A DNA stretch of 32,051 nucleotides from a virus. Below the pieces are notes generated by a model, which was not told the origin of the DNA, ran no database searches, and saw nothing but the letters and a program-made list of their open reading frames with translations. The position numbers and the translations under genes are program-made. The stretch spans positions 1 to 32,051 of the IMG/VR virus record IMGVR_UViG_3300001460_000103. One strand, written 5' to 3'. This document shows positions 504 to 32,051 of this stretch, one piece after another (position 1 is the first letter of the stretch; each line of letters begins with the position of its first letter).

Positions 504-506
504 ATG

Positions 507-14300: not shown

Positions 14301-17300
14301 ACACTTACATAACAAGTCAAACAGTTTTAAGGAAACATGATGGATCAATTATAAAGTCTTATGGTGATGAACGTGATGCCTTGATACTTGAATTAGAAAA
14401 AAGAATTTATAACAACTGTAAGACAGCATACGATTCAACGTTGCTAGATTTATCAGATGTAAGGCCCGGTGCTTTTTCAACAACAGAGTATTCACTATCT
14501 GAAATTAATGACGTGATGGGCGGAGATTTTTATTCATGGGCAGGAAGAAACAATGTACAATACATTAATAACACGACCTTTGTTGAAGGTTCTCCTTTCA
14601 CATACAATTATTGCAAATCAACTGATAGAATTACTGGCACAACACTTCCAGGATATTGGAGAGGTATATACCAATATTTCTATGACACCGATAGTCCACA
14701 TCTAAGACCATGGGAAATATTAGGACATTCAGAAAAACCATCAGACTGGGATACCACATATGGTGCGGCACCCTACACAGCAGGAAACAGTGTACTATGG
14801 AATGCAATAGCATCGGAACCAGGAAGATATGGAAAACCAAACATAGCAAATTATATTCCTGTTGATGCCTCAGGAAATTTATTAGATCCAATAGCGGCAG
14901 GATTGATACAAGACTTTAACGTGCCCGGTAGAACATTGCACTGGAAATTTGGTGATCATGGTCCAGCAGAAACGTCATGGAGAAGATCAAGTTCGTACCC
15001 ATTTACTGTGATGAAAACTTTAGCAACAACAAAACCTGCAAAATTCTTCTCTACTTTCTTTGACCTATCTCGATTGACTACAAACACAGCAGGAAATCAA
15101 ATTTACAGTGATACAGGAATTAGACTAAGATTTAAAACTTCAAAGTACCATCTCGAAACTTCTATAGATAACAACACAGGAGTGACAACGAGATACATCA
15201 CAGCAGGTTATCAAGTTTTCATCATCAATAGCCTCATAGCAAACAACCTCGACCCTATAACTTTTTACTATGATAAGATGAAAAATCTCAATGTGCAACT
15301 TGCATACAAGTTAGGAGGATTCACAGACAAAGGTAATATAAAGGTATTGACAGATTCTGTTTCACCAGGATCTACATCAGGATCTAAATTTATTCCAGAC
15401 GAAAACTACAAAATATTGTTTAGAACTTCTAATCCGGTTGAAAGTTTTGAATATTCAGGAGTGCTCATTGAAAAGAATACAGACACAACGACATCAACAG
15501 ACGGATCAACAGTCACTGATGTTGGTGGATACAAGGTATTAGGTTATTCTACATCAAAACCGTTCTTCCGTTTCACATATCCAGCCAAGTCAAGTAATTC
15601 AAAAAAAATATCAGTCGCAGGATCTGTTTCTGTAGAACAGCACTCTAATTTCCAAGAAACAGTGCAGACAATACCTTATGGATATGTGTTCACTACAATA
15701 CAGGATGTTGCTGATTTCTTATTTGGTTATGGAAACTACTTAGAATCACTAGGATTTAAATTTAACAAATATTCTAATGAAATTAGAGAGACTCTTAATT
15801 GGTCCAACGCTGTAAGAGAATTCTTGTTCTGGACCACACAAAAATGGGCACCTGGTTCGGCTATAACAGTCTCACCGGCGGCAGATGGGTTTGAATTAGA
15901 CACAAACAACAGTGTGGTTGGCAAATTAAGAAACCTAGCAGGTGATTATTCTTTATTAGATGCAGGCGGAAGAAAGATAGATATCAGAGAAGTAAGCACA
16001 AAACGTACAGGAAAAACTTTTGATCTTGACATCAAATCTCAAGATGTTGGATTGTTTAACATATCATTGAACACGGTTCAAAAAGAACATATGTTAATTT
16101 TTGATAATTCAACTGTGTTTTCAGATATAATTTATGAACCGTTCACAGGCTTTAGGCAGGCAAGGTTAAAACTTGTAGGATGGAAAACAGCAGGGTGGAA
16201 TGGCGATTACTACGCACCCGGCTTTGTGTTTGATGCCGCACAGGTTACTTACTGGACAGCAAACAGTGATTACAGAATAGGTGATTCAATCGAATATCAA
16301 GGCAAATTTTATGTTGCTAAATCCAATCATAATTCTATGGACAAGTTCGAAAACACGTACTGGACACTGAAAAGAGATAAACCGGCACCACAATTAATTC
16401 CAAACTTTGATTACAAGATATCACAGTTCAATGATTTTTATAATTTAGAATCAAGTAATTTTGATGAGTCACAACAGAAACTAGCACAAAAATTAATTGG
16501 ATACCAATCTAGAGATTATCTAGAAAATCTTTTTGTCAACGATGTTTCGCAATACAAATTTTATCAAGGATACATTAGAGAAAAAGGGACACAGAATGCA
16601 ATAGATAAAATCCTTAAAGCAAAATACGAAAATTCGGACATCACATTAGATTTATATCCAGAATGGATGATCCGGACTGGTACTTTTGGAAACACAGATG
16701 CACGAGAAAATATTCAAATCACTTTAAGTGATAGCGAAGTAAATGCCGATCCACAAAGTATCGAACTTCTAGACAACGCAACAGACACTAAAACATATTC
16801 GAGGTCACTGGCAGTCAACAAAGAAGACTTTTATAGAAAACCTGTGGAATACACAGCTAGTACAACATTTGCATTGTTAGATTATACCAAAGAAGGTGTA
16901 GACAGAGATAACACACAGGTCTTTAAGACTGCTGGATATCCTCAGTTGGGACAGGTGCAACACACCGGTTTCGATATAGATGATCTTCTAAATCTAGATA
17001 TTAATTCTATAGATAAAAATGATCTTGTATGGATAGCTAATAAACAAGACAAGGATTGGGACGTTTACAGACTAACAAGTGCTGGAATAAAAATTGCAAC
17101 GTTATCAACTTCTGAAAATGCAACAAAATTACTAATAGAGTTCACAGGGTCACATGGACTTTCTGCCGGAAACAACACTACTCCTGCCGACTACTTTGCG
17201 ATTTCAAACAGCGAGGCTACAACACTTAACAGGGTGTTCCAGGTAACAAGCACACCCAACCATAAAACAGTTATAGTCGACTACGAGGACAATGTAAACT

Positions 17301-20300
17301 TTATACCAACCCTACTTGACGGTTCGACTGCAGACAGTTATGGCAACGTATACAAGTTTGTATCTGTGCGTGTTGCATCCATGGACAATGTAAATGACAG
17401 ACTAGACTATCATGTCTATCTAGATAAAAATGACTCATTAAGTGTACCTGGAGATAAAATTTTTACAGACGCCGACACTACAGGATTATGGCGAGTATAT
17501 GAGAAGCAAGATCCATACACAGAATTTAGAACGTTTTCACCAAACGCAAGTTTATCTGACCAAGACTTTGGATACAAAATAGTTGCAAGGAACGACGGAA
17601 GATCCGCTGTAATATCAGCACCAGGAAAAGGTCAAGGGGAATTACATTTCTTATTCAGATCAAATCATTCCGCAGGTACACAATATTCTGTGCAATCGAC
17701 TGTGACAATGACTGACAACAACGATAATACAAGTAGATTAGGTGAGTCTCTGTCAATGAGTACGGATGAAAACTTGGTGGTTGCAGGTGCTCCGTATACA
17801 AACACGTTAGGACTTGACGGAAGCACAAGACAACTTGATGCTGGATTGATCAAAACTTTTGTTTGGGATTCTTCGACATTCAAATATGGTGCACTAGGAA
17901 CAGTCAACCCGCCAACTGATGGATCGTCATCTAATGAAAATCTAAATTTTGGTTGGGCACACAAGATAAGTGAACCGGGTTTGCTTTCAGTCAGAGACAC
18001 AGCAACCAAATATCTTTTTGTGTCTGCTCCTGGACACGCAAACGACAACGGAAGAGTATACATGTACACATGGGGAATAGGTGCTGACGGAAGTACTTAC
18101 GACACTTGGACACTTGACTACACACTAGAGGCTCCTTCTGCAGGACAAGGTCACAGATTTGGACACAGACTAGACGCCAATGACAATGGTGATATTCTTG
18201 CAGTAAGTTCATTGGCCCCGGGTCAGGCAGGAAAAGTAGAAATTTTTGTAAGGGTAGGGCAAAGCAACGATGACAGCACACAGAACTCATTTACATTAGC
18301 ACAAACACTCACAGGTACTTCCGGTGATGGTTCAACTTTGAACACGTCATTTGGAGAGTCTATCACAATGAGCAAAGATGGAACTAAATTGTTCGTAGGT
18401 GCTCCGGGAGTTGACGGAACAGATACTCCTGACACGGGTGTTGTTTATGTCTACAAATGGAACAGAGATGGTTCTACAAATACATACACACTAGATCAAA
18501 CAATCAGTGAACCTGATACGCTTTCCGGAGCCAAGTTTGGGTCGTCATTGTCGGTCAATCAGTCTGCAACAAGATTAATTATAGGTGCGGAAAAAGCCGC
18601 AAATCCTAGAGAAATGAAATTTGAATCTGGGGAAACAACATTCGACTTACAGGACACTACTATTGTAGATACCAATGCAAGTTCGGGTGCCGTGTACACT
18701 GCCACATTGTACAACACGAAATATGTCATAGATGATAGATTAGTGTCGCCTACTGTTTCACCACACGACGATTACGGCAGGGGAGTATGCATGATTGACA
18801 ACAACGTATTTGTAGGTGCACCTAAGGATGAGGGCAATTCAGGTTTAAGTAATGATGGATCTGTGTATTGTTTAGACTTGACAGAAGAAGATGTGTATGC
18901 ATGGAAAAATATTGCAACAGAAAAAGCATTTGTAGATATTAGTAAATTAGGACAAGTATTTGATTTCAACAACGGCTCGAAACAAATCAGGGATTACTAT
19001 GATCTATACGATCCGGTTAAAGGAAGAATACTAGGAATCGCTGACAGAGAAATAAACATTAAATCTCCATGGGATCCAGCTGTATACAATACAGGAGATA
19101 AAGCCAACACCGCGACACCTTGGGCAGAAAATCATATAGGTGAAACATGGTGGGACCTTTCAGCTGTGAAATGGTTATGGTACGAACAAGATAGCCAAGA
19201 ATACAAAGTAAACAACTGGGGTAAAACTTTCCCAGGTTCCAACATCAACATATATGAATGGACGGAATCAAGATTCACGCCAACGGAATGGAATAACTTT
19301 TCAGGCACACAAGAAGGTGTGTCGGCTCAAGTCACAGGTGAGGCTTCTGATAATTACACACAAATACAAAGGTATAGTTCTGTATTAGACACTTTTGTAA
19401 ATTATTATTTCTTCTGGGTAAAAAATAGAGCATCTATCCCGACCAATACAGTTGTACAAAGAAAAAACACAACGGCATTTGTTTCAAGTATTATTGCAAA
19501 CCCAAGCAAATCTGGTCTCAAATATTATTCTATTACTGACACAGATAAACTGATACTAAATGGAGTAAACGATTTGATCAATAGTGCTATCGTGCTCAAC
19601 ATAGACATAAGAACTAATAATTTTGATGGAGATTCACACACGGTGTGGAAATTAGCACGTGAAAGTGACCCGGATTACAGACCAGGACATCAGATAGAAT
19701 CACGTTGGTGGGATTCACTAGTGGGCAAAAACATAACCGGTGATTCTGTTCCGGACATAGATTTGCCTTTAAATGAAAAATATGGAAATAGTATAAGACC
19801 TCGACAGAGTTGGTATGTTGACAGATATTCTGCACTTAAAGAGTTAGTAGACTACGCCAACACTATTCTTAAAAAGAATCAACTAGTTGGTCAGATACGA
19901 TTAGGTAATTTAGATTCCAAGGAACCAGAACCAAACACTGTAAGTGGATTGTGGGACGGACAGGTAGACACATACGCAGAGTTAACTTACATAAACACTG
20001 CAGATATATCAGGAACACTAAACTATTTGGTCAAAGCAGATGAAACAGCAAACAACTATTGGGCAATATACCAATGGGATGGCACATTATGGAATAGGAC
20101 AAGAATTCAAACTTATAACACTTCCAATTACTGGAGTTACACTGACTGGTACGGCACTGATCCTGCCATCCATGAAATGTTACACGACGAAAACACACCT
20201 ATTGATAAACAAGTAACCTTCGAGTACGAACTTGACACATTAGATCTTGCATTAGGAAAACACGTAAAAGTTACCAATGCAGACACCGGTGGTTGGAAAC

Positions 20301-23300
20301 TGTTCATGAAAACTGCAACAGGATGGACAAATGTTGGAACGGAAAATGGCACAGTAAGATTAAGCACAAAATTATATGATTATTCTCAGGACGCTACTGG
20401 TTTTGCTTCAGGTGATAACTTTGACGATAATACTTTTGACCAAGAGCCAGTTACAGAAACAAGAAATATATTAACGGCACTGCGTGATGACTTATTCATA
20501 GGAGACCTAAAAGTTGAATACAACACTCTATTCTTTACAGGTTTAAGGAAAGTACTAGCGGAACAAATTTATGTTGACTGGATGTTTAAAACAAGTTTTA
20601 TAAACGCCGTAAACAAAGTTAGACAATTTGACCAAAGAAAGACTTATACAACAGGCACTGATAGCTGGATTGAAAGTTACATTAACGAAGTGAAACCTTT
20701 TCATACAAAACTACGTGAGTACAAACTGGGCTACAACGCTCCAGAACAACACGACAGTGTGATCACAGATTTTGACAATCCGCCTTTCTACGATGCTTCT
20801 GTGTCCAAGATAAGAAGATTAAATCCGCAGTACGACATTGATAAACTTAAACAATATCCATGGCAATTATGGTACGACTATCATAGAAAACATGTCAAAT
20901 CAATAACAGTAACACATGGTGGATCTGGATATGTAAGGGTACCGACAGTTACCATCACCGGTGATGACAGTACATCGGCTACTGCTACTGCAACAATACA
21001 AAGTGGAGCAGTCACATCTATTACAGTAACAGGAGTAGGCTTTGGATATTCCACAACACCTACTATCTCAATTACAGGGGGACTTGCAGACGGTTCAACG
21101 CCAACAGATGTTGCCAAAGCATATGTCAATCTAGACAACGATCTTGTGAGAGATTTCCTTACAACCATAAAATTTGATAGGATATCAAGCACATCTAAAG
21201 TGGTTAACTGGACGGCCAGCACAATATACAAGTACGGCGCATTGTTAAGATATAAAAATCAACTTTATAAAGTTACAAATGAATTTACTTCGACAACAGA
21301 TTTTGACGACAATGTAAACAGTGTTTACAAATATTTTGGTGATGAGTCAGGACTTACAGCCGCAGACAGGATATTAGGTTTCTATACACCAGCATCAGGC
21401 ATGCCGGGCAATGAATTGTCACAGGTTATGTCAGGTGTTGACTATGGTGGTACTATGGTCACAGGATTGCTGTTTAGTCAAAGTCAAGGGTGGGACAATT
21501 CACCATGGTACGACTATCCATGGGACAATTACGGTCTATCAAGAACAGTACCTTTCTTGGCAGATGGTTCTACAAAATCGTACACATTTGACACTGCACC
21601 GCAAGTAGGGGAAGTATTCCATGTGTACAGCACGGAAGATGACAGCACACGTAGAAAACTTTCTGATACATTCTCAGGTGATGGTAGCACAAGAACATTC
21701 ACTCTTAGCACTTCGCCTAACGAAAATGCTTTGATAGAATTTATACCTGCAGATGATGACGGTGTGTTGACACCTACAGACGACAGGACACTTGACTCTA
21801 TCGTAAAAGGCGGACTGTTTACGAAAGATGGACTTTATGGTTCTGCACTTGGATCAGCACCAAGTGATATAAACGTGGATGGTGATGAGTTCATATCTTC
21901 CACAACAAGTCATGCACCAGAAGAGACTGTGCCTGGTCAGATATTTGACACAGTTGATATAAAAGTTTACACTTCTCCTACTTCAGGAGCACCTTTTATT
22001 ACAGAAAAGATTTACACAGGTGATGCGACAACAACAACGTTCTCACTTGCAGAACATCCAGGAACTGTGGGTTCAGTTACAGTTTCTGTAAATGGTGTAA
22101 TTAAAAAATTAACAACAGACTATACAGTGGATGTGGGAGCAAAAACAATAACTTTTGGTTCAGCACCAGGCAGTGGTACTGTTATTGCAACAAAAACATT
22201 TGCCATATCGGGTAGACAGTTCAAAGCATTAGATCAGTTCACTGGAGATGGGTCAACCACGGTGTATACTACTTCATCAAGGGAAGATTTTAATTTAGAT
22301 TCAACACTTGCAGAATTGTATGTGACGGTCAACGGCGTGCCTACAACCGCTTTCAATTCAAGTTCAACATCACCAGAATTCGGTGACGGTTCAACAACAA
22401 GTTTGGGTAACACTCTTATTATAGATTTCAATTCAGCACCGGCAAGTGGAGCATTTATTCAAATAGCAGGATTCATGAAGAGTCCAAGTAATGCCTCAGG
22501 CAGAAATCATATGAGAATGAGGAACGAGGAGATAACCTTTGACGGTTCTACTACACACGTGTTGACACACCCACCGGGAACCATCAGACCACTGACAGGT
22601 TTGACACTTATCGAAGTGGATGGAAAAATGTTGAGAGCGCCAGATACCACTTATTACAAAGGTGACGGAAGCACATACACATATGGTGTTGCAACGGGAC
22701 TATCAGATGATTCAACAGTGGACCCTGCAAAAACTATAAGTTCTGCTAGTCAAGTGGAAGTGCATGTCAATGGAGGGCTGAAAACATTAACAACAGACTA
22801 CACAGTTGACACTGGAAGTCAAAACATAAATTTCACTTCAGGGAGTGTGCCCAGATCAGACCAGATGGTTAGTATAACCACTTTTGTAGATCATCATTTC
22901 AGTATTGACGCTAGTAACAGATTGGTCTTAAACTTGACTCAAATTGCGGCAGATGGATACACATTGAATGTCAATGACAAGATGGCAGTAACTACTTTCA
23001 ACAATGCTGTTGGTATGAGTTTAAGAAGAGAAGTTTTAGAAGGAAGACCAGACGGAGTATATAAAACTTACTTTACACCAACAAACTCAACTTACATGTA
23101 CGTCTGGCTAAATGGAGAAAGTCTAATTCAAAATAATGACTTTACACTTACTGGAGGAAACACAATTACAGTGATTGGAAAAACAATGACGTCATCAGAC
23201 AGGCTTGATATCTTATACTTTGCGTCGCCAACAATAGCAAACGCTGTTGGGTACAGAATTTTTAAAGATATGATGAACAGAACTTTCTATAAGAGAATTA

Positions 23301-23941
23301 GTAAGACACACACGACTGAATTAACACTAACACTGGCCACAGACGCCACTACTATAACTGTGGCAGATGGAACGAAACTTGCTGACCCTCAGTCAATAAT
23401 AGGATTAGATGGATCAACTATCAGCACTATAATACCAGGAGTGGTGTTTATAGACAAAGAAAGAATTGAATATTTTACCAAGACAGGAAACACGTTGGGA
23501 CAACTACAACGTGGCACACTTGGTACAGGAATTAAGGGGCATGGATCAGGCACTGAAGTGGTAGATGTGTCTGGTACTCAAACCATCCCTTATGTGGACA
23601 CCGTGTACACCAACACTTTTATAAGTGACGGAAGCACTGCGTCGTTCACAATATCACAAACCCCATCCTCTGCTACTGAGTTAGACATATTCATTGGTGG
23701 CCAACGATTGTTGCTCACTAGCGAGGATGGATCAACTATCAACTATTCTGTGGACGGAAGCAATGTAGTCACATTAACCAGTGTACCGCCTATTTCCATG
23801 CAGATTAAAATATTACACAAGAGAGGACAGGTATGGACAACAGCGGCAGATGGTAATCCTGCTGATGGTAAAGGTTTACAAGGCTCGATCACTGCACAGT
23901 CTAAATTCATTGCGGACGAACCGACAAACTCACCTGAATAA
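11318..23941 (+). CDS. Giant (4207 aa) mosaic baseplate/fibre protein with gp7-like segment
   Basis: One uninterrupted 12.6-kb frame, by far the largest in the window. Modules seen: an N-terminal marine-phage signature with YREYFWVSNGPDAIEI (about 153); a cupredoxin-like domain (about 200-290; C273, H276, M279); a carbohydrate-binding-like WTANSDYRIGDSIEYQGKFY (1646-1665); a segment with YQSRDYLENLFVNDV and FYQGYIREKGTQNAIDKIL (within 1719-1772) resembling T4 gp7 near FYSTKGIEASYKFLFKVLY; seven FG-GAP repeats (2084-2505); a GGSGY...PTVTITG double repeat (3195-3256); a second WTA-type motif (3298-3345); and several Ig-like repeats (3454-4175). A GVVFIDKERIEYFTKTGN block lies near 4040. It follows gp6, where T4 has gp7, gp8 and gp10, none of which appear separately here. 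AGGA five bases before the ATG supports the start. Probable role: wedge plus peripheral adhesin; the exact role is unknown. Confidence 0.7.
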   Translation: MADTPTNSLTNNEVIKQGTNEYRRTVQHLPAFYRTAANQRFLSSTLDPLVQKGALERLDGFVGRQDAYTRKSTDRYISTTSRDRMAYQLEPTITYTDRDTTSVNPEDQVKFTGTYDDYINQLKYLGGKVNNHDRLNKEHVYSWNPAIDLDKLVNYREYFWVSNGPDAIEIDSPGTGAEAEYKVQAVTGAYQFPHLEGESNPEITLYRGNTYKFNVDAKGNPFYIMTEPYSTMLSSDGSSSTLYTSGVTNNGADEGTVTFVVPTNAPNTLYYQCGNHDAMYGVLHVQTVDAGTQINVEDDIVGVKNYKLRTLDLSNGMKIKFSNTRVSSAYQNKEYYIEGVGEAIRITDVSTLATPESYSDSGVPVDKDYITIKRSSLDQNAWSRYNRWFHRSVIEKSSAVNGTATVLDETDRAKRPIIEFDSGLALYNSGTTAKTPVDLYDTTQTDAFSNVSGTFGYIVDGVPITDGMRVIFSADTDPLVRNKIYVVNFVDAGDSSVLSLTLSEALNGTAGDKETVFVKQGTSNKGKSYYYNSSTTRWQTTQQKTKLNQQPLFNMYDNNHTLFDDATAYPNSSFVGAKVFAYATSDNATTDTVLGIKVKYNTINNVGDMVFESDHTSGTFTYQDDGVTTTKNLAEGHLHYTTSSTSHNSKSAWVKRTNESKQRVIRTFIVDDTEKRLFPIDFYANSSSSSDLEVSASVNGIRKTLTTDYTLVDGTANKYVRFVNELKVNDQVRLAGYSTADKLADKGIYEIPENLSTNSLNETVGTFTYGQILKHSTDILDKDSELTGAIPGVTNLRDKPDAKLKGGTIHQHEAPLAPAIFNLVDQDANAIRAIDYVNQEYEKWYNAFLTYATGTAYEGNAADRVDEIIIGINQGRNSSFPFYYEDMVGWGENVSLRTYTVQGASQTEYALDSQHNLTTLGNRAVYVYKNDVQLVHDSEYTFSTADDSVTISATLTAGDIIKIKDYSDTTGSYMPPSPTKLGMYPKFKPETFTDNTYITSQTVLRKHDGSIIKSYGDERDALILELEKRIYNNCKTAYDSTLLDLSDVRPGAFSTTEYSLSEINDVMGGDFYSWAGRNNVQYINNTTFVEGSPFTYNYCKSTDRITGTTLPGYWRGIYQYFYDTDSPHLRPWEILGHSEKPSDWDTTYGAAPYTAGNSVLWNAIASEPGRYGKPNIANYIPVDASGNLLDPIAAGLIQDFNVPGRTLHWKFGDHGPAETSWRRSSSYPFTVMKTLATTKPAKFFSTFFDLSRLTTNTAGNQIYSDTGIRLRFKTSKYHLETSIDNNTGVTTRYITAGYQVFIINSLIANNLDPITFYYDKMKNLNVQLAYKLGGFTDKGNIKVLTDSVSPGSTSGSKFIPDENYKILFRTSNPVESFEYSGVLIEKNTDTTTSTDGSTVTDVGGYKVLGYSTSKPFFRFTYPAKSSNSKKISVAGSVSVEQHSNFQETVQTIPYGYVFTTIQDVADFLFGYGNYLESLGFKFNKYSNEIRETLNWSNAVREFLFWTTQKWAPGSAITVSPAADGFELDTNNSVVGKLRNLAGDYSLLDAGGRKIDIREVSTKRTGKTFDLDIKSQDVGLFNISLNTVQKEHMLIFDNSTVFSDIIYEPFTGFRQARLKLVGWKTAGWNGDYYAPGFVFDAAQVTYWTANSDYRIGDSIEYQGKFYVAKSNHNSMDKFENTYWTLKRDKPAPQLIPNFDYKISQFNDFYNLESSNFDESQQKLAQKLIGYQSRDYLENLFVNDVSQYKFYQGYIREKGTQNAIDKILKAKYENSDITLDLYPEWMIRTGTFGNTDARENIQITLSDSEVNADPQSIELLDNATDTKTYSRSLAVNKEDFYRKPVEYTASTTFALLDYTKEGVDRDNTQVFKTAGYPQLGQVQHTGFDIDDLLNLDINSIDKNDLVWIANKQDKDWDVYRLTSAGIKIATLSTSENATKLLIEFTGSHGLSAGNNTTPADYFAISNSEATTLNRVFQVTSTPNHKTVIVDYEDNVNFIPTLLDGSTADSYGNVYKFVSVRVASMDNVNDRLDYHVYLDKNDSLSVPGDKIFTDADTTGLWRVYEKQDPYTEFRTFSPNASLSDQDFGYKIVARNDGRSAVISAPGKGQGELHFLFRSNHSAGTQYSVQSTVTMTDNNDNTSRLGESLSMSTDENLVVAGAPYTNTLGLDGSTRQLDAGLIKTFVWDSSTFKYGALGTVNPPTDGSSSNENLNFGWAHKISEPGLLSVRDTATKYLFVSAPGHANDNGRVYMYTWGIGADGSTYDTWTLDYTLEAPSAGQGHRFGHRLDANDNGDILAVSSLAPGQAGKVEIFVRVGQSNDDSTQNSFTLAQTLTGTSGDGSTLNTSFGESITMSKDGTKLFVGAPGVDGTDTPDTGVVYVYKWNRDGSTNTYTLDQTISEPDTLSGAKFGSSLSVNQSATRLIIGAEKAANPREMKFESGETTFDLQDTTIVDTNASSGAVYTATLYNTKYVIDDRLVSPTVSPHDDYGRGVCMIDNNVFVGAPKDEGNSGLSNDGSVYCLDLTEEDVYAWKNIATEKAFVDISKLGQVFDFNNGSKQIRDYYDLYDPVKGRILGIADREINIKSPWDPAVYNTGDKANTATPWAENHIGETWWDLSAVKWLWYEQDSQEYKVNNWGKTFPGSNINIYEWTESRFTPTEWNNFSGTQEGVSAQVTGEASDNYTQIQRYSSVLDTFVNYYFFWVKNRASIPTNTVVQRKNTTAFVSSIIANPSKSGLKYYSITDTDKLILNGVNDLINSAIVLNIDIRTNNFDGDSHTVWKLARESDPDYRPGHQIESRWWDSLVGKNITGDSVPDIDLPLNEKYGNSIRPRQSWYVDRYSALKELVDYANTILKKNQLVGQIRLGNLDSKEPEPNTVSGLWDGQVDTYAELTYINTADISGTLNYLVKADETANNYWAIYQWDGTLWNRTRIQTYNTSNYWSYTDWYGTDPAIHEMLHDENTPIDKQVTFEYELDTLDLALGKHVKVTNADTGGWKLFMKTATGWTNVGTENGTVRLSTKLYDYSQDATGFASGDNFDDNTFDQEPVTETRNILTALRDDLFIGDLKVEYNTLFFTGLRKVLAEQIYVDWMFKTSFINAVNKVRQFDQRKTYTTGTDSWIESYINEVKPFHTKLREYKLGYNAPEQHDSVITDFDNPPFYDASVSKIRRLNPQYDIDKLKQYPWQLWYDYHRKHVKSITVTHGGSGYVRVPTVTITGDDSTSATATATIQSGAVTSITVTGVGFGYSTTPTISITGGLADGSTPTDVAKAYVNLDNDLVRDFLTTIKFDRISSTSKVVNWTASTIYKYGALLRYKNQLYKVTNEFTSTTDFDDNVNSVYKYFGDESGLTAADRILGFYTPASGMPGNELSQVMSGVDYGGTMVTGLLFSQSQGWDNSPWYDYPWDNYGLSRTVPFLADGSTKSYTFDTAPQVGEVFHVYSTEDDSTRRKLSDTFSGDGSTRTFTLSTSPNENALIEFIPADDDGVLTPTDDRTLDSIVKGGLFTKDGLYGSALGSAPSDINVDGDEFISSTTSHAPEETVPGQIFDTVDIKVYTSPTSGAPFITEKIYTGDATTTTFSLAEHPGTVGSVTVSVNGVIKKLTTDYTVDVGAKTITFGSAPGSGTVIATKTFAISGRQFKALDQFTGDGSTTVYTTSSREDFNLDSTLAELYVTVNGVPTTAFNSSSTSPEFGDGSTTSLGNTLIIDFNSAPASGAFIQIAGFMKSPSNASGRNHMRMRNEEITFDGSTTHVLTHPPGTIRPLTGLTLIEVDGKMLRAPDTTYYKGDGSTYTYGVATGLSDDSTVDPAKTISSASQVEVHVNGGLKTLTTDYTVDTGSQNINFTSGSVPRSDQMVSITTFVDHHFSIDASNRLVLNLTQIAADGYTLNVNDKMAVTTFNNAVGMSLRREVLEGRPDGVYKTYFTPTNSTYMYVWLNGESLIQNNDFTLTGGNTITVIGKTMTSSDRLDILYFASPTIANAVGYRIFKDMMNRTFYKRISKTHTTELTLTLATDATTITVADGTKLADPQSIIGLDGSTISTIIPGVVFIDKERIEYFTKTGNTLGQLQRGTLGTGIKGHGSGTEVVDVSGTQTIPYVDTVYTNTFISDGSTASFTISQTPSSATELDIFIGGQRLLLTSEDGSTINYSVDGSNVVTLTSVPPISMQIKILHKRGQVWTTAADGNPADGKGLQGSITAQSKFIADEPTNSPE
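11915..12183 (+). other. Cupredoxin-like domain inside giant protein
   Basis: Encodes about residues 200-288: EITLYRGNTYKFNVDAKGNP at the start and TLYYQCGNHDAMYGVLHVQT at the end. The C-x2-H-x2-M spacing (C273, H276, M279) resembles type-1 copper sites. The upstream position that in similar marine sequences I recall as GHPF reads GNPF here (N220), so one expected ligand may be absent. The fold is inferred; copper binding is uncertain. Confidence 0.5.
17558..18830 (+). repeat. Seven FG-GAP-like repeats in giant protein (predicted beta-propeller)
   Basis: Seven successive units, each beginning with an F/L/Y-G motif and closing in a VxAPG-like strand. They begin near residues 2084 (DFGYKIVARNDGR), 2140 (RLGESLSMSTDEN), 2210 (NFGWAHKISEPG), 2280 (RFGHRLDANDNGD), 2344 (SFGESITMSKDGT), 2406 (KFGSSLSVNQSAT) and 2485 (DYGRGVCMIDNN). 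Spacing is 56-79 residues. Seven copies match the blade count of integrin-type propellers. The units are diverged in DNA, so they are an old duplication. Confidence 0.75.
20902..21085 (+). repeat. GGSGY/PTVTITG double beta repeat in giant protein
   Basis: Residues about 3195-3256 contain two copies of a short unit: SITVTHGGSGYVRVPTVTIT, then SITVTGVGFGYSTTPTISIT. Copies share 'SITVT-x-x-G-x-GY-x-x-x-PT-(V/I)-(T/S)-IT'. They are separated by an Ala/Thr-rich linker. I associate this unit with marine phage fibre-like proteins, where it is probably a small beta module; binding function is not known. Confidence 0.7.
21673..23838 (+). repeat. C-terminal Ig-like repeat array of giant protein
   Basis: At least five diverged copies of a module that begins 'GDGST-x-x-(F/Y)' and continues through 'x-V-x-VNG-x-x-x-x-LTTDYTVD' to a closing 'ITF...AP-x-SG...I-x-x-x-x-F'. 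Starts are near residues 3454, 3568, 3642, 3781 and 4101, with a related unit near 3911 (TYMYVWLNGESLIQNNDFTL). Similar single units occur earlier, near 671 and 902. The pattern suggests a string of beta-sandwich domains, a typical extended fibre or stalk. Confidence 0.65.
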
Positions 23942-24679: not shown

Positions 24680-25897
24680 ATGGCATATACAGTAAACAAG
24701 AGTAACAGTTCGGCTTCTCCCAATCAGTACATTGTGCAGGATGGTGTGGTCAACGCACAAACGGATTTAAGTTTCATAGGTAAGGGCTACGCAGGTTATG
24801 GAGAGCTAGTAGCAGAAAACTTTTTACACCTTTTAGAAAATTTCGCTGGAACGAGTGCTCCAACAAAACCTATTCAAGGACAACTTTATTATGATTCAAC
24901 TGGCAACAGATTAAAGGTATACACAGGAACAGCGTTTGTCCCGGCCGGTGGTAACGTTCCTTATCAGTCAACACAACCGACTGCGATACAACAGGGTGAT
25001 CTTTGGATAGATTCAGACACAGGACAATTATATTATTATGATGGTTCACAGAGTGTTTTAGTAGGTCCACCTGCTTCGACAGGATCTCTAAATGGTTTCA
25101 TATTTGAGTCAGTAACAGATTCAACAACTGCCAGCCAGCCAATTACAAAATGGTATAGTGATGGAACACTTATAGCAATTATTTCAGACACAGAATTCAC
25201 TCCTCAGACAACCATTGCAGGATTTGCCACAGTCAAAAAAGGAATTACACTTACTACATCACCTAGTGGAATTAAGTTTCAAGGTACTGCCACGGACGCA
25301 GACGCACTTGGTGGAATATCAGCGTCATCATTTCTAAGATCAGATGCCAATGACACAACAACAGGCACACTGGGTATAGTAAACGATTCTGGTATGACAG
25401 TCGGTGCAGACAATGACTTGTCAATCACAGTAGACGGAACAGGAATTAATTTAGCAAACACAGTTCAGAATACGGACATAACCTTCAAAGTAAACGACGG
25501 TGGTGCTACTTCAACTGTTATGACCATTGATGGCACGGAATCCAGGATTGGTATAGGCACTATAACTCCTAGTACAAAATTAGATGTGTCTGGTACTGTA
25601 AATGCAACAGCATTCACAGGTCCAATAACAGGTGCTGTCACAACATCAGGAATACAATTAACACAAAATGGTACAGTGATCTTTGAAGGATCTGCAGACG
25701 ACGGCTTCGAGACAACACTGACTGTGGCAAACCCAACAGCAGACAGAACAATTACCATACCAAACGTAACAGGAACAGTCATAACAACAGGTGACTCGGG
25801 TACAGTTACAGCCGCGATGATGGCAACACCAACGTCTCTACAAATTTTAAGCAGTACAGGATCGGTATTAAAGACCATCAACGGCGCAGGAGCGTAG
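24680..25897 (+). CDS. Tail-fibre-like virion structural protein
   Basis: 405 residues. The N-terminal 70 residues (NQYIVQDGVVNAQTDLSFIG, YGELVAENFLHLLENFAGT) form a virion-attachment-type segment recalled from marine T4-like fibre proteins. Short repeats follow: GQLYYDSTGNRLKVYTG and GDLWIDSDTGQLYYYDG (a duplicated 'G-x-L-(Y/W)-x-D-x-x-T-G' unit). A shaft region contains DALGGISASSFLRSDANDTT (about 208-227) and RIGIGTITPSTKLDVSGTV (about 288-306), the formulas typical of trimeric fibre shafts. Many proteins with this shaft end in an S74 chaperone; this one does not, ending TGSVLKTINGAGA. AGGA lies eight bases before the ATG. It is the last gene of the continuous late block. Probably a peripheral fibre for host recognition. 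Confidence 0.68.
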   Translation: MAYTVNKSNSSASPNQYIVQDGVVNAQTDLSFIGKGYAGYGELVAENFLHLLENFAGTSAPTKPIQGQLYYDSTGNRLKVYTGTAFVPAGGNVPYQSTQPTAIQQGDLWIDSDTGQLYYYDGSQSVLVGPPASTGSLNGFIFESVTDSTTASQPITKWYSDGTLIAIISDTEFTPQTTIAGFATVKKGITLTTSPSGIKFQGTATDADALGGISASSFLRSDANDTTTGTLGIVNDSGMTVGADNDLSITVDGTGINLANTVQNTDITFKVNDGGATSTVMTIDGTESRIGIGTITPSTKLDVSGTVNATAFTGPITGAVTTSGIQLTQNGTVIFEGSADDGFETTLTVANPTADRTITIPNVTGTVITTGDSGTVTAAMMATPTSLQILSSTGSVLKTINGAGA

Positions 25898-25905
25898 ATT
25901 TATGG

Positions 25906-25934
25906 TTGATATTTTTGTCAGCGTAGTATATTAT
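25906..25934 (+). promoter_or_regulatory. Sigma70-type promoter (TTGATA-17-TATTAT)
   Basis: The -35 TTGATA (25906-25911) and -10 TATTAT (25929-25934) are separated by exactly 17 bases, in the 59-bp gap before the 311-residue gene. The predicted start near 25941 leaves a leader of about 16 bases that contains AAGGA (25946-25950) six bases from the ATG. A GCGTA/TACGC inverted repeat (25921-25925, 25937-25941) flanks the -10. Confidence 0.65.
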
Positions 25935-25956
25935 TGTACGCAAACAAGGATTACAA

Positions 25957-26895: not shown

Positions 26896-26924
26896 TTGAC
26901 TTATGGTGCCCAGTGCCATATAAT
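26896..26924 (+). promoter_or_regulatory. Strong sigma70-type promoter (TTGACT-17-TATAAT) with spacer palindrome
   Basis: The -35 TTGACT (26896-26901) and a perfect -10 TATAAT (26919-26924) have 17-base spacing in the 52-bp gap before the 157-residue gene. The spacer holds an inverted repeat TATGG-N9-CCATA (26902-26906 and 26916-26920) that overlaps the first two bases of the -10, positioned like an operator. The predicted start is near 26931, at the first base of the AAAAGGA ribosome site. Confidence 0.8.
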
Positions 26925-26944: not shown

Positions 26945-27418
26945 ATGGCAATTTTTACAGGAAAGATACTTGAGGCGTATTACTCTAATGCCGATAACAC
27001 AACGGTTGAAGTAATCTACAAAGATGGCAAAAGAGCAATTAACCACTATCTTCCGGTAGATATGTCTCATCCAGACTTTAAGGATTTGATTGCTGAATAT
27101 CCAGCATCCAAAATAGCGGATTCAACAGTAGCGAGAAATAGAGAAGCGTACAAACAGCTCAATAGAGTTGTAGAAGCAAAAGTAAAACAAAAACTTGAAG
27201 ATAAACCTATGCAGAATTTTGATTCTGTAACGGAATTTATAATCAATTATGATCCAAAGAAACAGGCGGAGCAATTATTTTCTCTCAAGTTGAAAATATT
27301 TGAGAAAGATCAGGTCAAAGATTACAACGACAATGATGTTAAGGCTAAGATCAGACAAGCAAAGACACCATTAGATGTGTTGTTGGCCTATAAGGAAATA
27401 ATCACTAGCAATAGATAA
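26945..27418 (+). CDS. Uncharacterised 157-aa protein
   Basis: Not recognised. It begins with a beta-type stretch MAIFTGKILEAYYSNADNTT (1-20) followed by VEVIYKDGKRAINHYLPVD, which could bind or dock to something in a DNA-, fibre- or assembly-related way. The rest is mostly helical and charged, Lys/Glu/Gln-rich (REAYKQLNRVVEAKVKQKLE, about 66-85), ending in a short helix PLDVLLAYKEI. There is no signal peptide or membrane segment. It sits directly behind the best sigma70 promoter in the window (AAAAGGA seven bases before the ATG) and one base ahead of the accessory cassette, so it heads that transcript. A fibre chaperone or a small regulator are both possible; neither is supported by a motif. 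Confidence 0.6.
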   Translation: MAIFTGKILEAYYSNADNTTVEVIYKDGKRAINHYLPVDMSHPDFKDLIAEYPASKIADSTVARNREAYKQLNRVVEAKVKQKLEDKPMQNFDSVTEFIINYDPKKQAEQLFSLKLKIFEKDQVKDYNDNDVKAKIRQAKTPLDVLLAYKEIITSNR

Positions 27419-27419
27419 A

Positions 27420-27992
27420 ATGTTATCGGTATATTGTGTAAACTGGGGAACGAAATACCCAAGGGATTTTACAACAAGTCTAAAAGAATCAATAGAAAAG
27501 CATCTAACCATACCTCATAAATTTTATTGTTACACAGATAATCCCATTGAGGATTATGATGTGCAGGTGAAATATCCTTACCTTAGAGGAGTGTGGCATA
27601 AACTGGCTCTTCTAGAAAACACAGGTGAAAGTTTGTTCTTTGATCAGGACATCAAAATAAACAGCAACATAGATTTTCTTTGTGAAGACTTTGATAAATT
27701 TTCTGTAATTGATAGTACCCCATGGAAACCAAAAAATATACCACTTTTAGAATTTAGAATGACACAGAACACGTTGGTAAACAGCAGTGTCATGCGTTGG
27801 AGCAATCATGCACACATATTTGAGAAATTCCAAAAGCATAGAGACATGTATCTTAGACTATACGCTGGTATAGATAGGTACATCTATAACGAAAAAGTGG
27901 AATATCACCCAATTAGCACTGACAAGATAACAAGTTGGTATCAAAAGATTGATGATAGTGCGATAGTGCTGTATAATGGCAAGTACAAATGA
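27420..27992 (+). CDS. Glycosyltransferase-like protein (GT8-type, DQD motif)
   Basis: 190 residues with features of a compact GT-A nucleotide-sugar transferase. The N-terminal strand LSVYCVNWGTKYP leads into KFYCYTDNP (34-42), then GVWHKLALLE (57-66) and FFDQDIKIN (73-81), where D75-x-D77 stands for the DxD motif that holds metal and sugar nucleotide. A later SSVMRWSNHAHIFEKF matches the acceptor-side helix in related proteins. It would transfer a sugar to an unknown acceptor in the cytoplasm. It starts one base after the previous stop and its own stop overlaps the next start (ATGA), so translation is coupled. It is smaller than typical GT8 members (about 250-300), so the C-terminal part may be minimal. 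Confidence 0.65.
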   Translation: MLSVYCVNWGTKYPRDFTTSLKESIEKHLTIPHKFYCYTDNPIEDYDVQVKYPYLRGVWHKLALLENTGESLFFDQDIKINSNIDFLCEDFDKFSVIDSTPWKPKNIPLLEFRMTQNTLVNSSVMRWSNHAHIFEKFQKHRDMYLRLYAGIDRYIYNEKVEYHPISTDKITSWYQKIDDSAIVLYNGKYK

Positions 27993-28621
27993 CATATGAT
28001 CAAAAGACTATAAATGCATACAAGGACATACAGAGAATTGCCAAGCATTTCCCAGGAAGATTGCTTGACGCTTTCTCTTGCTTCAGTCAAAATCAGTTTG
28101 ATTGCAAAACATGGTTGATAGATTGTCTTAATCAGTATCCGTACCATTTCAAAAATAAAACTAAAGATAGTATCGATATTGCTATCCTAGGAGGATGGTA
28201 TGGATTGATGGCAAAATTACTCTCAACAAATTTTATACTAAAGCCAATCAATAATATTCACTCATTTGATTTCGATCCAATCGCAAAAAAAATTGGAAAA
28301 ACACTTTTCCCAGAAGTTACATTTATCGAAAAAGATGTCACGGAACTAGATCTCAACGACAAGCATTTTAGCATAGTGATTAATACAAGTTGCGAACACA
28401 TAGATCAAAAACTGCTTTACAAATCTATAGACACGGCGCCAGAAAAAACTTTATTTGTTTTACAAAGCAACAACTACAAAGATCTTCAACAACATATAAA
28501 TTGTGTTGAAAATCTTGAACAATTTACAAAACAATACGAAAGTAGATTAGAAAACATTCGTCCATTTGAGCTTCAAAAAGAAAAGTACACAAGATTTATG
28601 ATAATGGGGGTCAAAAAATGA
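27989..28621 (+). CDS. SAM-dependent methyltransferase-like protein
   Basis: 210 residues with a class I methyltransferase pattern. Motif I is IAILGGWYG (64-72), a form of the glycine-rich SAM loop; the acidic end of strand 2 is SFDFDP (92-97); then FIEKDVTELDL in the motif III region; and FSIVINTSCEHID as a motif IV-like strand. The substrate is not indicated. The surroundings (two glycosyltransferases) make a sugar, glycan or small-metabolite substrate plausible, but this is inference. There are 4-base overlaps with genes on both sides (ATGA), so it is made in step with them. It lacks the target-recognition features of DNA methyltransferases (no NPPY or PC motif seen). Confidence 0.62.
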   Translation: MTYDQKTINAYKDIQRIAKHFPGRLLDAFSCFSQNQFDCKTWLIDCLNQYPYHFKNKTKDSIDIAILGGWYGLMAKLLSTNFILKPINNIHSFDFDPIAKKIGKTLFPEVTFIEKDVTELDLNDKHFSIVINTSCEHIDQKLLYKSIDTAPEKTLFVLQSNNYKDLQQHINCVENLEQFTKQYESRLENIRPFELQKEKYTRFMIMGVKK

Positions 28622-29352
28622 CACAACTACAAAAACTAATGGAGTTTAGGGAGAATATACATCATTTCAAAACGCAAGACCCTGGCAGAGATAAAATAGA
28701 AAAGATTTTAAAAGATGCACATTCATTGGTCCCAACAAAAAATAATCTTTGGGCCTACAATATAGATGTTTATGGTCCACAACACAATAAAGAAAAAGAA
28801 ATTGTGGCTATGCAAACAGTAACCGGATACGATAAACGCAATTTTGCACCAGGAGGACAGGATTACGGAAACATTGACAAACTCAAAGAGATCTATAAAA
28901 AATGGAAAGAAGGCAGAGAGACACTACGTGATGATCCAACGGTAGAAAATAGGAAACTGAGAGCCAAGTACCAGGGTTTTTCTTTTAACGAACAGGTCAC
29001 AGCACCTTATCTTTTAGTGTATTATCAAGTGCCTGGCTTTCCAACAGAAAAACAAATGTCAAAAAATTACAAAAGACTTATGATTGACTACAAAGATAAC
29101 GAGCAATGGATGATATCTGCATCAATGCACGGTTATGGCACAACACTTCTTGCCGCGGAACAAGGCCTACACGCAAGTTTTTGCAAATGTTACTATCATG
29201 ACATTGAGAATTTTACTAACATTCTTTCTCCTCTAAGGCACGGGTACAAGAACGTCGCATTTCTTTTGGGCATAGGATACAAAGATGCGGAACTACCGTA
29301 TTATAAAAATCGCAATGTTCCAGAATATGATGAAATAGTCACATGGAGGTAA
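28618..29352 (+). CDS. Nitroreductase-family flavoprotein-like protein
   Basis: 244 residues. The N-terminus MEFRENIHHFKTQDPGRDKI (8-27), with R11 and the IHHF turn, corresponds to the 'RRSVRxF' FMN-phosphate contact. ILKDAHSLVPTKNNLWAYNI (30-49) corresponds to 'A-x-x-APSxxNxQPW'. Near the C-terminus GTTLLAAEQGLHASFCKCYY fits the 'LAAxxLGL' helix and AFLLGIGYKDAE the closing 'GYP' strand. The family uses FMN and NAD(P)H to reduce nitro groups, quinones or related substrates; the cellular substrate here is unknown. A long charged insertion (EIYKKWKEGRETLRDDPTVE) separates the halves. It overlaps the methyltransferase by four bases. The match is by pattern; key residues differ from classical members, so a diverged role is possible. 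Confidence 0.55.
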   Translation: MTQLQKLMEFRENIHHFKTQDPGRDKIEKILKDAHSLVPTKNNLWAYNIDVYGPQHNKEKEIVAMQTVTGYDKRNFAPGGQDYGNIDKLKEIYKKWKEGRETLRDDPTVENRKLRAKYQGFSFNEQVTAPYLLVYYQVPGFPTEKQMSKNYKRLMIDYKDNEQWMISASMHGYGTTLLAAEQGLHASFCKCYYHDIENFTNILSPLRHGYKNVAFLLGIGYKDAELPYYKNRNVPEYDEIVTWR

Positions 29353-29358
29353 AATGTT

Positions 29359-30717
29359 ATGGAAAACTTTGAACAATTTAAAAAACTTTGGCTAGAACAA
29401 ACAGATTCGATTAAACCAACAAAAAAATTGAAGCATCTTGTGTTTATTGTGATGTATCCGGACTCGATAAGATGGAACAGCATAGTTGAAAAGCAAGTGC
29501 AGATGACAGTTTTACAAACATCAGGTGGTATAACAGGATCTGGTACCGGCCATGTACAAAAACTTTGTCATCAAAGCGAATTGCAGAGTGTTTTAGAATC
29601 TTGTGATGAGCATTCACATGCAATGATATGTATGTCCGGTATGATATTCGACATGACTGCACAGGTTTCACCGATAACGAGATTCTATGATTGGGCAAAG
29701 ACAGGAGAGTATTGTAAAGGACACATACTATCAAGATTAAATTTTACACAACTCAACGGCCAACACATGCAATTAAATTTACAAAAATGGAGAGAACTTG
29801 GCAAACCCTCAATATGGGAAGTATGGAAGAAGTTCAAAAGGTCAAAAGAAAACATACATGATGATTACACACCCTCTTGGGTGAAGCCACATAACAGGCC
29901 TGAAATAAAAAATTTCACTCCTGTAGAACGTAAAGCAAAAGCATGGTCATATCTACACTTAAGAAAGAAGAAAGCACATCAGCGGAAATTATGGTTGAAC
30001 ATAAAAGGATTACCCGACGGGTGGATAGATAGTATTAACATAGACACCAGGGACAACTACACCAAAATACTAATGAAAAGAATGAAATCGCGTTTCTATT
30101 CAGAGAATACTGAGTTGATAGGTAAACTCCCAGAACAAAAATTTGATCTAATATTCACTCCTACCGCAGGGTACAGTGGTGAGATATTTGCTGACAGATT
30201 AGATTTTTGGGGAGAAATAATTTTCTATGATTATTGTAATGAAAATATTCATATAAAACAAAATATAGTTGGGATGAGCATGAGCATGGATGATATAAAA
30301 AAGTATAGTAAAGTATCCAAACATCCGATTGTTTTTAACAACCATGGATTCCTACAAAATCACTATCCTGATTATGATCCAAAAAAGTTTAAGAAAGAAT
30401 ATGGCGACAGGACCGCATTAAGACTTTTACAGTATAAAATGCACAACAAACACAAAGTTACCTATTGGTTGATGGACCTTATTAAAACATTGAGAGCCAA
30501 AGGGAGATCGAAAAATTACAATGATCTCGTCAAGAAAATAAAAGGCAAACACGTTTTTTTTGATGTAAGTAATATATTCAGCTATCATGTATCACATGCA
30601 GGATATACTTTACAAGAATTAGTGGACGCTTTAGAAGATTTTAAACAACTGTTGAAAAGACACACTACCAGTTTTTATATAAAAGGCACTGCACCGGCTA
30701 AACAGGAGATACAATGA
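29359..30717 (+). CDS. Uncharacterised two-part protein, possible transferase
   Basis: 452 residues, not firmly recognised. The N-terminal part (about 1-150) has an alpha/beta start (KHLVFIVMYPDSIRW) and HSHAMICMSGMIFDMTAQVS, then GHILSRLNFTQLNGQHMQLN and LQKWRELGKPSIWE, reminiscent of glycosyltransferase-like domains, with no clear DxD. A basic linker (about 155-240, many Lys/Arg) follows. The C-terminal part has FDLIFTPTAGYSGEIFADRL (about 260-279), then EIIFYDYCNENIHIKQNIVG (about 285-304) and KHVFFDVSNIFSYHVSHAGY (about 397-416), which resembles a SAM-methyltransferase-like alternation of strands and helices without a glycine-rich loop. GGAGGT eight bases before the ATG is the best ribosome site in the cassette. 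It overlaps the next gene by ATGA. Confidence 0.45.
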   Translation: MENFEQFKKLWLEQTDSIKPTKKLKHLVFIVMYPDSIRWNSIVEKQVQMTVLQTSGGITGSGTGHVQKLCHQSELQSVLESCDEHSHAMICMSGMIFDMTAQVSPITRFYDWAKTGEYCKGHILSRLNFTQLNGQHMQLNLQKWRELGKPSIWEVWKKFKRSKENIHDDYTPSWVKPHNRPEIKNFTPVERKAKAWSYLHLRKKKAHQRKLWLNIKGLPDGWIDSINIDTRDNYTKILMKRMKSRFYSENTELIGKLPEQKFDLIFTPTAGYSGEIFADRLDFWGEIIFYDYCNENIHIKQNIVGMSMSMDDIKKYSKVSKHPIVFNNHGFLQNHYPDYDPKKFKKEYGDRTALRLLQYKMHNKHKVTYWLMDLIKTLRAKGRSKNYNDLVKKIKGKHVFFDVSNIFSYHVSHAGYTLQELVDALEDFKQLLKRHTTSFYIKGTAPAKQEIQ

Positions 30718-31415
30718 AAATATTCGCAGTAAGGATAGGGGACAGGTATGGTCCAGAATACGAAAGTTACCTAGAGGCAAAACTGCCCGAATATGATTTT
30801 CACTGGATACGCAAACCAATACAAGATGATATATTGATGCAATGGAATAAGATGGCGGTCATGAACATGGATATAGATGAACCAGTAGTTGTGATGGACA
30901 TTGACATGTTATTAGTAAATGATTATAAAAAAATATTTGACTATCCGATCAAACGTGGAGAGTTTCTTTCAATACCTGGATGGTGGAGAGACACTGAACG
31001 AGAAGGTTACAGTCTTAACGGCGGATTTTTCAAATACTACCCAACTGACTGCAAGTACATATACGAAAAATTTATGAAAGACCATTTGAAATGGCAAAGA
31101 CATTACATTGAAAATGGTGTTACTAAAGGCCCAATTAATGGCGAGCAATATTTTGTTGAGGACTCGGTTAAGGAAAGACTAAAGTTAAAATTAATACCTA
31201 CGAGCTGGGTGACACGTTGGTGTAGTGACGAAATAGTAATTTATGGACAAGACATGAAAGAATGGCAAATTAAAACTACAATGAAATATCAAAGGCTTAC
31301 AAATAACGATTATGTGTATCTTGGAGGTGAATTTCATCCAGACATAAAATTAGTGCATTTTACTCACCATGCAAATAAACCGCACGACTGGGAGGGCTAT
31401 AAATATTTCATATGA
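30714..31415 (+). CDS. Glycosyltransferase-like protein (GT-A fold, DxD motif)
   Basis: 233 residues. It starts MKIFAVRIGDRYGPEYESYL, then QWNKMAVMNMDIDEPVVVMD (43-62) and D62-I-D64, a DxD motif at the end of a hydrophobic strand as in GT8-like enzymes. SLNGGFFKYYP and NGEQYFVEDSV follow the 'N-G-G' and 'D-Q' stations of that family, and LVHFTHHANKPHDW near the C-terminus matches its 'H-F-x-x-x-x-KPW' ending. It probably transfers a hexose from a nucleotide sugar; the acceptor is unknown. AGGAG lies five bases before the ATG, which overlaps the upstream stop. It shares architecture with the 190-residue protein at the head of the cassette, but the two are clearly different in sequence. Confidence 0.68.
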   Translation: MKIFAVRIGDRYGPEYESYLEAKLPEYDFHWIRKPIQDDILMQWNKMAVMNMDIDEPVVVMDIDMLLVNDYKKIFDYPIKRGEFLSIPGWWRDTEREGYSLNGGFFKYYPTDCKYIYEKFMKDHLKWQRHYIENGVTKGPINGEQYFVEDSVKERLKLKLIPTSWVTRWCSDEIVIYGQDMKEWQIKTTMKYQRLTNNDYVYLGGEFHPDIKLVHFTHHANKPHDWEGYKYFI

Positions 31416-31975
31416 TAATATTATACGGATATATGATTTATTGGGTGTTAGCGGCAATAGGAATCACTTACGGATACCATAGGTACTTTGCTCATAAGAA
31501 CTACACAACCAATAAATTTAATGAAATACTTCTTTTATACATAGGCCTTCTATGTGGGGGCAGAAGTGCCTTAACATGGGCAGGTGTACATAGGATACAT
31601 CACGCACACGCTGACACAGAAAAGGATCCCCACAGTCCTAAAAATTATCCTTGGTATGTTGTACTATTCAGTTTATGGAAAGTTAAACAAATACCGAGAA
31701 AATATATACATGATTTAATTAAAAATCCAAGGGTAATGTTCTTCCATAGATACGGTAAATTTATTTTTGCCGCTCACTGGATAATCACACCATTGCTTTT
31801 TGGCGTAAATGCAGTTATAATTAACCTAATGTTGTTTATTCTTTCATATGTGGGTTTTGGTATACTGAACTTTTACGGACATGATGCCAAAGGTCCTGCA
31901 AACAATTTATTAATTAATTTGGTTGCACCGTTTGAAGGGAACCATAAGGATCATCATGATTACGCAAGAATTTAA
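31412..31975 (+). CDS. Fatty acid desaturase-like membrane protein (compact)
   Basis: 187 residues with the three histidine boxes of membrane acyl desaturases: HRYFAH (23-28), HRIHH (60-64) and HKDHH (178-182). Together these bind the di-iron centre that inserts a double bond into an acyl chain. Hydrophobic segments lie at about 2-18, 37-55 and 117-155. The protein is short: the usual range is about 250-350, with a membrane pair before box 1 and tens of residues after box 3. Here only 22 residues precede box 1 and five follow box 3. All boxes are intact and no stop interrupts the frame, so it is either a minimal enzyme or has lost its ends. It overlaps the upstream gene by four bases and the downstream start by 20. 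Acyl substrate and electron donor are not indicated. Confidence 0.8.
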   Translation: MIILYGYMIYWVLAAIGITYGYHRYFAHKNYTTNKFNEILLLYIGLLCGGRSALTWAGVHRIHHAHADTEKDPHSPKNYPWYVVLFSLWKVKQIPRKYIHDLIKNPRVMFFHRYGKFIFAAHWIITPLLFGVNAVIINLMLFILSYVGFGILNFYGHDAKGPANNLLINLVAPFEGNHKDHHDYARI

Positions 31976-32051
31976 CAGATCCAGTAATGTTGAGTATGTT
32001 GAGATGGGGTTCGATGTGCCCGTCAAACAACTGCTTACAGAATACGAATTG
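31956..32051 (+). CDS. Start of an additional cassette gene (cut by window edge)
   Basis: An ATG at 31956, five bases after AAGGA (31946-31950), opens a frame that stays open to the end of the window (32 codons): MITQEFNRSSNVEYVEMGFD followed by VPVKQLLTEYEL. It begins within the last codons of the desaturase gene, the same overlapping arrangement as the rest of the cassette. Too little is visible to name it. A small cytoplasmic enzyme such as an oxygenase is one guess from marine phage gene neighbourhoods and has no motif support. Confidence 0.55.
   Translation, partial: MITQEFNRSSNVEYVEMGFDVPVKQLLTEYEL

Follow-up and report, generated by a model that had tools for sequence, protein, structure and literature searches.

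A tightly packed gene run beside phage tail genes

Islands of sugar-modifying and oxidative enzymes beside tail genes are common in ocean phages, and the question was whether such islands constitute pathways or loose assortments of genes. We examined one such set of genes, here called the cassette, in a 32,051-nt stretch of DNA (the whole of which is called the window; IMG/VR record IMGVR_UViG_3300001460_000103), which represents part of a T4-like marine phage and comes from a virus record without a host entry. Baseplate genes, an open reading frame (ORF) of 4207 aa and then tail proteins up to 26892 precede the cassette, and from 27420 to the window end we found six complete ORFs (g1 to g6) followed by the first part of another, h7 (Table 1). 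Four-base ATGA overlaps were verified at 27989, 28618, 30714 and 31412, a 6-base gap separates g3 from g4, and g6 and h7 overlap by 20 bases. The window end truncates h7 and the rest of the run, which continues for ~9 further overlapping genes (h7 to h15) on IMGVR_UViG_3300025120_000109, a contig identical to that of the window over 11.4 kb.

Table 1. Promoter and genes of the cassette, in window coordinates
Feature	Position	Strand	Description
Promoter	26896..26924	+	sigma-70-type, TTGACT-N17-TATAAT; directly after the stop of the preceding tail gene, before g0
g0	26945..27418	+	157 aa, function not assigned; constant left partner of the cassette
g1	27420..27992	+	GT-A glycosyltransferase, GT8-like; conserved DxD (D75, D77)
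g2	27989..28621	+	class I SAM-dependent methyltransferase-like; invariant CEH motif
g3	28618..29352	+	nitroreductase-like flavoprotein
g4	29359..30717	+	two domains: N-terminal, GT-A-like without DxD; C-terminal, Rossmann/methyltransferase-like; invariant HDxYTP motif
g5	30714..31415	+	GT8-type GT-A glycosyltransferase; invariant DID (62-64)
g6	31412..31975	+	very short membrane fatty-acid desaturase; all three histidine boxes (HRYFAH, HRIHH, HKDHH)
h7	31956..32051 (truncated by window end)	+	Asp/Asn beta-hydroxylase-family 2-oxoglutarate oxygenase, N-terminal start

The continuation (h7 to h15) encodes two AspH-family oxygenases, an acetyltransferase-like (GNAT) protein, two methyltransferases and unnamed proteins, some of which, judged by eye, may be 2-oxoglutarate oxygenases and an SGNH-like hydrolase. 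Beyond h15 lie a second fibre paralogue, glycosyltransferase-like genes and radical S-adenosylmethionine (SAM) genes (NCBIfam NF033640); these radical-SAM genes, with twitch domains, are found downstream of the cassette on contigs G001 and G003. Contig G003 (74% DNA identity) has the same gene order as the window lineage, and its island additionally carries a carbamoyltransferase, a PseC/LegC-like aminotransferase, an epimerase and a PIG-L deacetylase. Related fibre-like proteins flank the cassette on both sides (window 24680-25897 and L009 6762-8405, minus strand). After the second fibre copy come a further protein, a small one and then genes resembling glycosyltransferases; locus L100 repeats this layout.

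The two predicted glycosyltransferases were recognised in different ways. For g1, four of 19 family members matched the Pfam model Glyco_transf_8 (best E 9e-4), with no match for the window protein alone. For g5, no match to the Pfam model of glycosyltransferase family 8 (GT8) was obtained, and it was the AlphaFold model (predicted local distance difference test, pLDDT, 75.9, with a poor C-terminal part) that placed UGGT, LgtC, GlyE, glycogenin and LH3 among its Foldseek neighbours (best E about 1e-6). The DxD motif is invariant in both families. The g2 protein reached 19.4 bits against Methyltransf_25 (E 0.0018), missing the Pfam cut-off of 27 bits, and its profile matched spermidine synthases of the same fold (E 0.0014), a resemblance of fold only. 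For g3, five of 16 family members matched Nitroreductase (PF00881; best E 1e-3), the window protein itself giving no match, and a hit to the putative reductase PDB 5j6c was obtained at E 1.7e-4. All six genes are under purifying selection (pN/pS 0.07-0.16).

For the g4 protein, neither a sequence match in the PDB nor a credible one in Pfam was obtained, and PDB searches with the g1, g4 and g5 profiles gave zero matches. The AlphaFold model of g4 (mean pLDDT 89.9) matched GT-A enzymes and NNMT-type methyltransferases weakly and uncharacterised phage proteins strongly (E 1e-25) in Foldseek. The protein is likely a GT-A-like domain fused to a methyltransferase-like domain, a reading of the predicted structure that we word with caution because TM-scores were low over the two-domain model. 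With ~30 full-length homologues at 35-50% identity, mostly encoded immediately before g5 or one or two genes further upstream, g4 represents a sizeable unnamed protein family.

The desaturase g6, which alone of the named cassette genes is predicted to encode a membrane protein, passed the FA_desaturase model (PF00487) with 34.7 bits against a cut-off of 29.7. Complete h7 (L002, 10598-11188) scored 50.1 bits against Asp_Arg_Hydrox (PF05118; cut-off 22.6), and an HxD...H...R motif is conserved across its family. Assignment of h7 as a lipid hydroxylase of the LpxO/OlsC kind was rejected at the level of the models, with 14.2 bits against an OlsC cut-off of 450 and no match to the LpxO model. The first-pass annotation, made from the letters of the window, had described coupled glycosyltransferase, methyltransferase, nitroreductase-like and desaturase genes with a protein in two parts. 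The genes, their overlaps and coordinates are real and the run even continues past the window; the functions were broadly right, with the desaturase above its cut-off, weak but consistent matches for the methyltransferase and nitroreductase, GT-A/GT8 assignments from profile matches (g1) and structure (g5), and a two-part g4 according to AlphaFold and Foldseek.

Elsewhere in the window, the 4207-aa ORF (11318-23941), a virion or baseplate protein, is rich in DGST repeats, and two opposite-strand genes occupy 3-1490 (minus strand), the first metallophosphoesterase-like as judged by eye.

A conserved core gained or lost whole

Viral contigs were scanned with a g5 profile, by which 492 relatives were confirmed, and the best 80 were retrieved; these loci are thus best-scoring samples, and the analysis rests on homology and position. 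The order g0-g1-g2-...-g5 was kept in 32 of 34 distinct marine viral loci carrying both g0 and g5, with g0 upstream of g1 in the 34, at times with intervening genes. The core consists of g0, g1, g2, a redox enzyme, an optional g4 and g5, followed by variable add-ons. Identity of g1 and g2 between loci spans 20-90%, yet the g1-g2-g5 order holds. Protein distances of g1 and g2 were correlated with r 0.96, compared with 0.54-0.58 against the tail protein F6, although such correlations also reflect shared genome ancestry.

Junctions in the cassette families overlapped in 264 of 284 cases, compared with 36 of 152 between flanking structural genes; the simple ORF caller rewards 1- and 4-base overlaps, so that only this contrast, between genes called in the same way, is meaningful. 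Packing of the cassette is tighter than chance. The 4-base overlaps also recur in diverged loci, at g2-g3 in 17/19, at g3-g5 in 13/15 and at g5-g6 in 10/10.

In the interval between g2 and g5, a nitroreductase, AspH or radical-SAM gene was found in 33 of 34 loci. Nitroreductases (18 of the 34) and AspH genes (14) never co-occurred, an exclusivity that partly tracks two lineages and therefore gives no independent evidence that the enzymes are equivalent. One viral contig of 96.6 kb (L180) carries six radical-SAM genes in a row, then a distant g4 relative and AspH. Twitch-domain radical-SAM proteins (NF033640), nitroreductase, AspH and methyltransferase together recall peptide-tailoring sets, and the cassette might make a modified small molecule or peptide used during infection, such as a cofactor or a product resembling ribosomally synthesized and post-translationally modified peptides. 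We consider this quite improbable: the most constant members are glycosyltransferases, and no precursor-like ORF was seen in the near gap-free run (ORFs below 60 aa were not searched).

To avoid sampling by the cassette itself, we carried out a second scan anchored on the neck (head closure) protein. Among 27 loci with enough upstream sequence, g4 and g5 were both present in 13 and both absent in 14, and among six with a visible g0, five had the full core and one, L190, had none. L190 and L174 share 91% identity as far as the end of g0 and 96% from the start of GNAT onward, and the 6.8 kb that L174 has between g0 and GNAT are missing entirely from L190. The cassette is gained or lost whole, and its genes behave as one unit. 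In relatives it lies between tail genes and genes for the head-tail adaptor, head closure and sheath stabiliser; the window-lineage contigs showed no neck genes. The isolates HTVC008M and Melnitz have different contents at the equivalent tail-neck junction, which fits an exchangeable site.

These data bear on two further explanations. Unrelated auxiliary genes, each acting alone, might have accreted at a permissive site, as the differing middle genes and downstream add-ons would suggest, together with a GC content below that of the structural flanks in 54 of 57 loci. The low GC could reflect import or, alternatively, the class of gene. For the core, accretion is disfavoured by an order that persists across such diverged g1 and g2 sequences and by its absence as a block, and we regard it as improbable. 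Phage glycosyltransferases and 2-oxoglutarate oxygenases can also act on DNA bases, and hypermodification of the phage DNA is conceivable on that ground. It is very improbable here, as a close relative (L190) does without the block, and neither a nucleotide kinase nor a hydroxymethylase or other enzyme of base modification was recognised.

The promoter-type site before g0 was the top match in the scanned region. In eight related loci, pairwise identity at this site was 96% and 90% for the hexamers and 39% for the spacer; in most loci of the other lineage there is a gap of 10-20 nt before g0 and the site is not present. Bulk counts of terminators and promoter-like sites equalled those of shuffled sequences, and therefore only this conserved site was used. 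In L097, from the window's own lineage, no gap within the cassette exceeds 30 bases, which would allow a single transcript from g0 to h15. In the same relatives, another conserved sigma-70-like motif, TTGA... followed by TATNNT, precedes the tail gene F6 (window 25898-25956), and the g0 promoter therefore does not set expression of the cassette apart from that of the tail.

The proposal that the genes form one unit thus stands, on conserved order, whole-block gain or loss and one promoter, and scattered, independently gained copies were not found for the g1-g2-g5 core. The strict coupling of the desaturase was borne out in part: in the window lineage it belongs to a downstream sub-block with AspH and GNAT in which overlaps are conserved, but it is an add-on outside the core, present in 17 of 67 loci.

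A cellular origin was considered and rejected: a single g5 scan of cellular genome contigs gave two matches, L181 (CAJWSQ010000087.1) and L182 (PAAV01000055.1), both of them phage contigs carrying structural genes that had been assigned to metagenome-assembled genomes of a Flavobacteriales and a Chloroflexi bacterium. L181 is nearly identical to the viral locus L123, whereas L182 has g0-like and g1/g2/g5-like genes.

Possible acceptors of the predicted glycan

Because the glycosyltransferases are constant and the island of the relative G003 holds sugar-pathway genes, the product is probably a glycoconjugate. Our favoured reading, to which we give a probability of about 0.45, is that the cassette carries out cytosolic synthesis and decoration of a surface glycoconjugate whose acceptor belongs to the host envelope and would most likely be host lipopolysaccharide (LPS) or lipid A. 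We favour this acceptor because GT8 enzymes of a comparable island have been assigned to changes in the host O-chain, with avoidance of coinfection as a proposed role (Zaragoza-Solas et al. 2020; PMC7029224), because of the desaturase-AspH-GNAT sub-block, and because LpxO, a lipid A acyl hydroxylase, is an AspH-family member (PMC5767591).

Under this proposal, the genes described here are the left end of a modular tailoring cassette that entered T4-like marine phages between their tail-fibre and neck genes and moved as a unit. The two GT8-type enzymes and the putative glycosyltransferase-methyltransferase fusion would build a short glycan, or lengthen one, at the cytosolic side of the membrane. 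Its decoration would fall to the methyltransferase together with one of several interchangeable oxidising enzymes (a nitroreductase, an AspH-type oxygenase or a radical-SAM protein). In the window lineage, the desaturase, the AspH-family hydroxylase and GNAT may additionally alter acyl chains. An altered envelope could then block superinfection, or keep progeny from binding debris.

Several observations weigh against this reading. GT8-type enzymes act on proteins too, h7 resembles OlsC only at E 0.018, far under the model cut-off, and no host is recorded for the virus. The cassette is located among virion genes, the named genes other than the desaturase are predicted to encode non-membrane proteins, and neither a lipid-carrier transferase nor a flippase, polymerase or ligase was recognised in it. 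The last three points also suit the main alternative, in which the targets would be tail fibres or receptor-binding proteins of the phage itself. Their side chains would be oxidised and then glycosylated and methylated, as in the glycosylation of collagen or flagellin, to tune adsorption. The position beside the tail genes F6 and g0, ahead of the neck genes, the second fibre paralogue of the window lineage with its small protein and further glycosyltransferase, and the protein glycosyltransferases UGGT, LH3 and glycogenin among the Foldseek neighbours are consistent with this. However, a cassette-free phage has relatives of F6 at 92% identity and of g0 at 86%, the desaturase does not fit, and GT-A fold matches do not reveal the acceptor. 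We consider modification of the virion rather unlikely.

Also unlikely, and slightly more so, is the specific form in which interchangeable oxidising enzymes prime side chains of tail proteins, to which the GT8 enzymes and the g4 fusion then add a decorated glycan; if true, this would be a swappable receptor-binding chemistry independent of fibre sequence. A collagen-like target was rejected, as Gly-X-Y runs occurred in only two loci (L102 and L103), of one sequence type. The protein in question has GYTGS-type repeats and is absent from the other loci scanned.

With an ordered core and promoter in dozens of diverged contigs and a clean absence in a near-identical sibling, the function of the cassette is open to experiment, the choice being whether the block changes the host envelope, the virion or neither.

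Relation to described phage islands

The first-pass annotation knew of no described phage pathway with this gene set. This was too strong, because two counterparts have been described. The first is the host recognition cluster of pelagimyophages, a tail-gene island between VrlC and the neck gene gp14 with GT8 and radical-SAM cassettes (PMC7029224). Both are variable islands of T4-like marine phages, and the window locus has all three gene types, namely tail genes (a fibre-like ORF), GT8-like genes (g1 and g5) and, further downstream on G001 and G003, radical-SAM genes. The pelagimyophage island is called non-syntenic (PMC7029224), whereas here we find an ordered core, its own promoter and whole-block absence in a sibling. 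Phages with the pelagimyophage cluster infect SAR11; the window's record has no host entry, and its baseplate protein is nearest to those of phages of Agrobacterium and others (32-42% identity).

The second counterpart is Pelagibacter phage Mosig EXVC030M (MT647606, 54.7-71.8 kb), which has homologues of g0, g2, g3, g5 and g6 among its tail genes, with that of g0 near those of g2 and g5. AspH, NodU, DegT and SGNH-like proteins are encoded in the same region, where the desaturase, 33-37% identical to g6, adjoins AspH. Unlike in the window, order and strands are rearranged, the genes are annotated only as putative, and no g1 or g4 homologues were found by phmmer. Among annotated isolates tested for g2 to g6 and AspH, only Mosig and one Acinetobacter phage desaturase (two records) matched, and the g4 family gave zero matches against INPHARED. 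Lipid desaturases encoded by cyanophages were reportedly described by Roitman et al. in 2018 (ISME J 12:343, as cited in PMC11480375); these and g6 are both phage fatty-acid desaturases, g6 being very short and part of an AspH/GNAT-linked block.

The LPS-gene clusters of the T4-like cyanophages P-SSM2 and S-SSM7 (PMC3037559) and S-SCSM1 (PMC9602691) likewise hold phage-borne genes for sugar or cell-wall modification, and phages with such clusters are also rich in 2-oxoglutarate oxygenases (PMC3037559, PMC9602691). Clusters of the P-SSM2 type are sited near hli03/phoH and tRNAs, however, rather than at the tail-neck junction. Collectively, these comparisons place the cassette in a type of island that is already known, while the conserved ordered core, its promoter, its whole-block absence and the g4 family are new.

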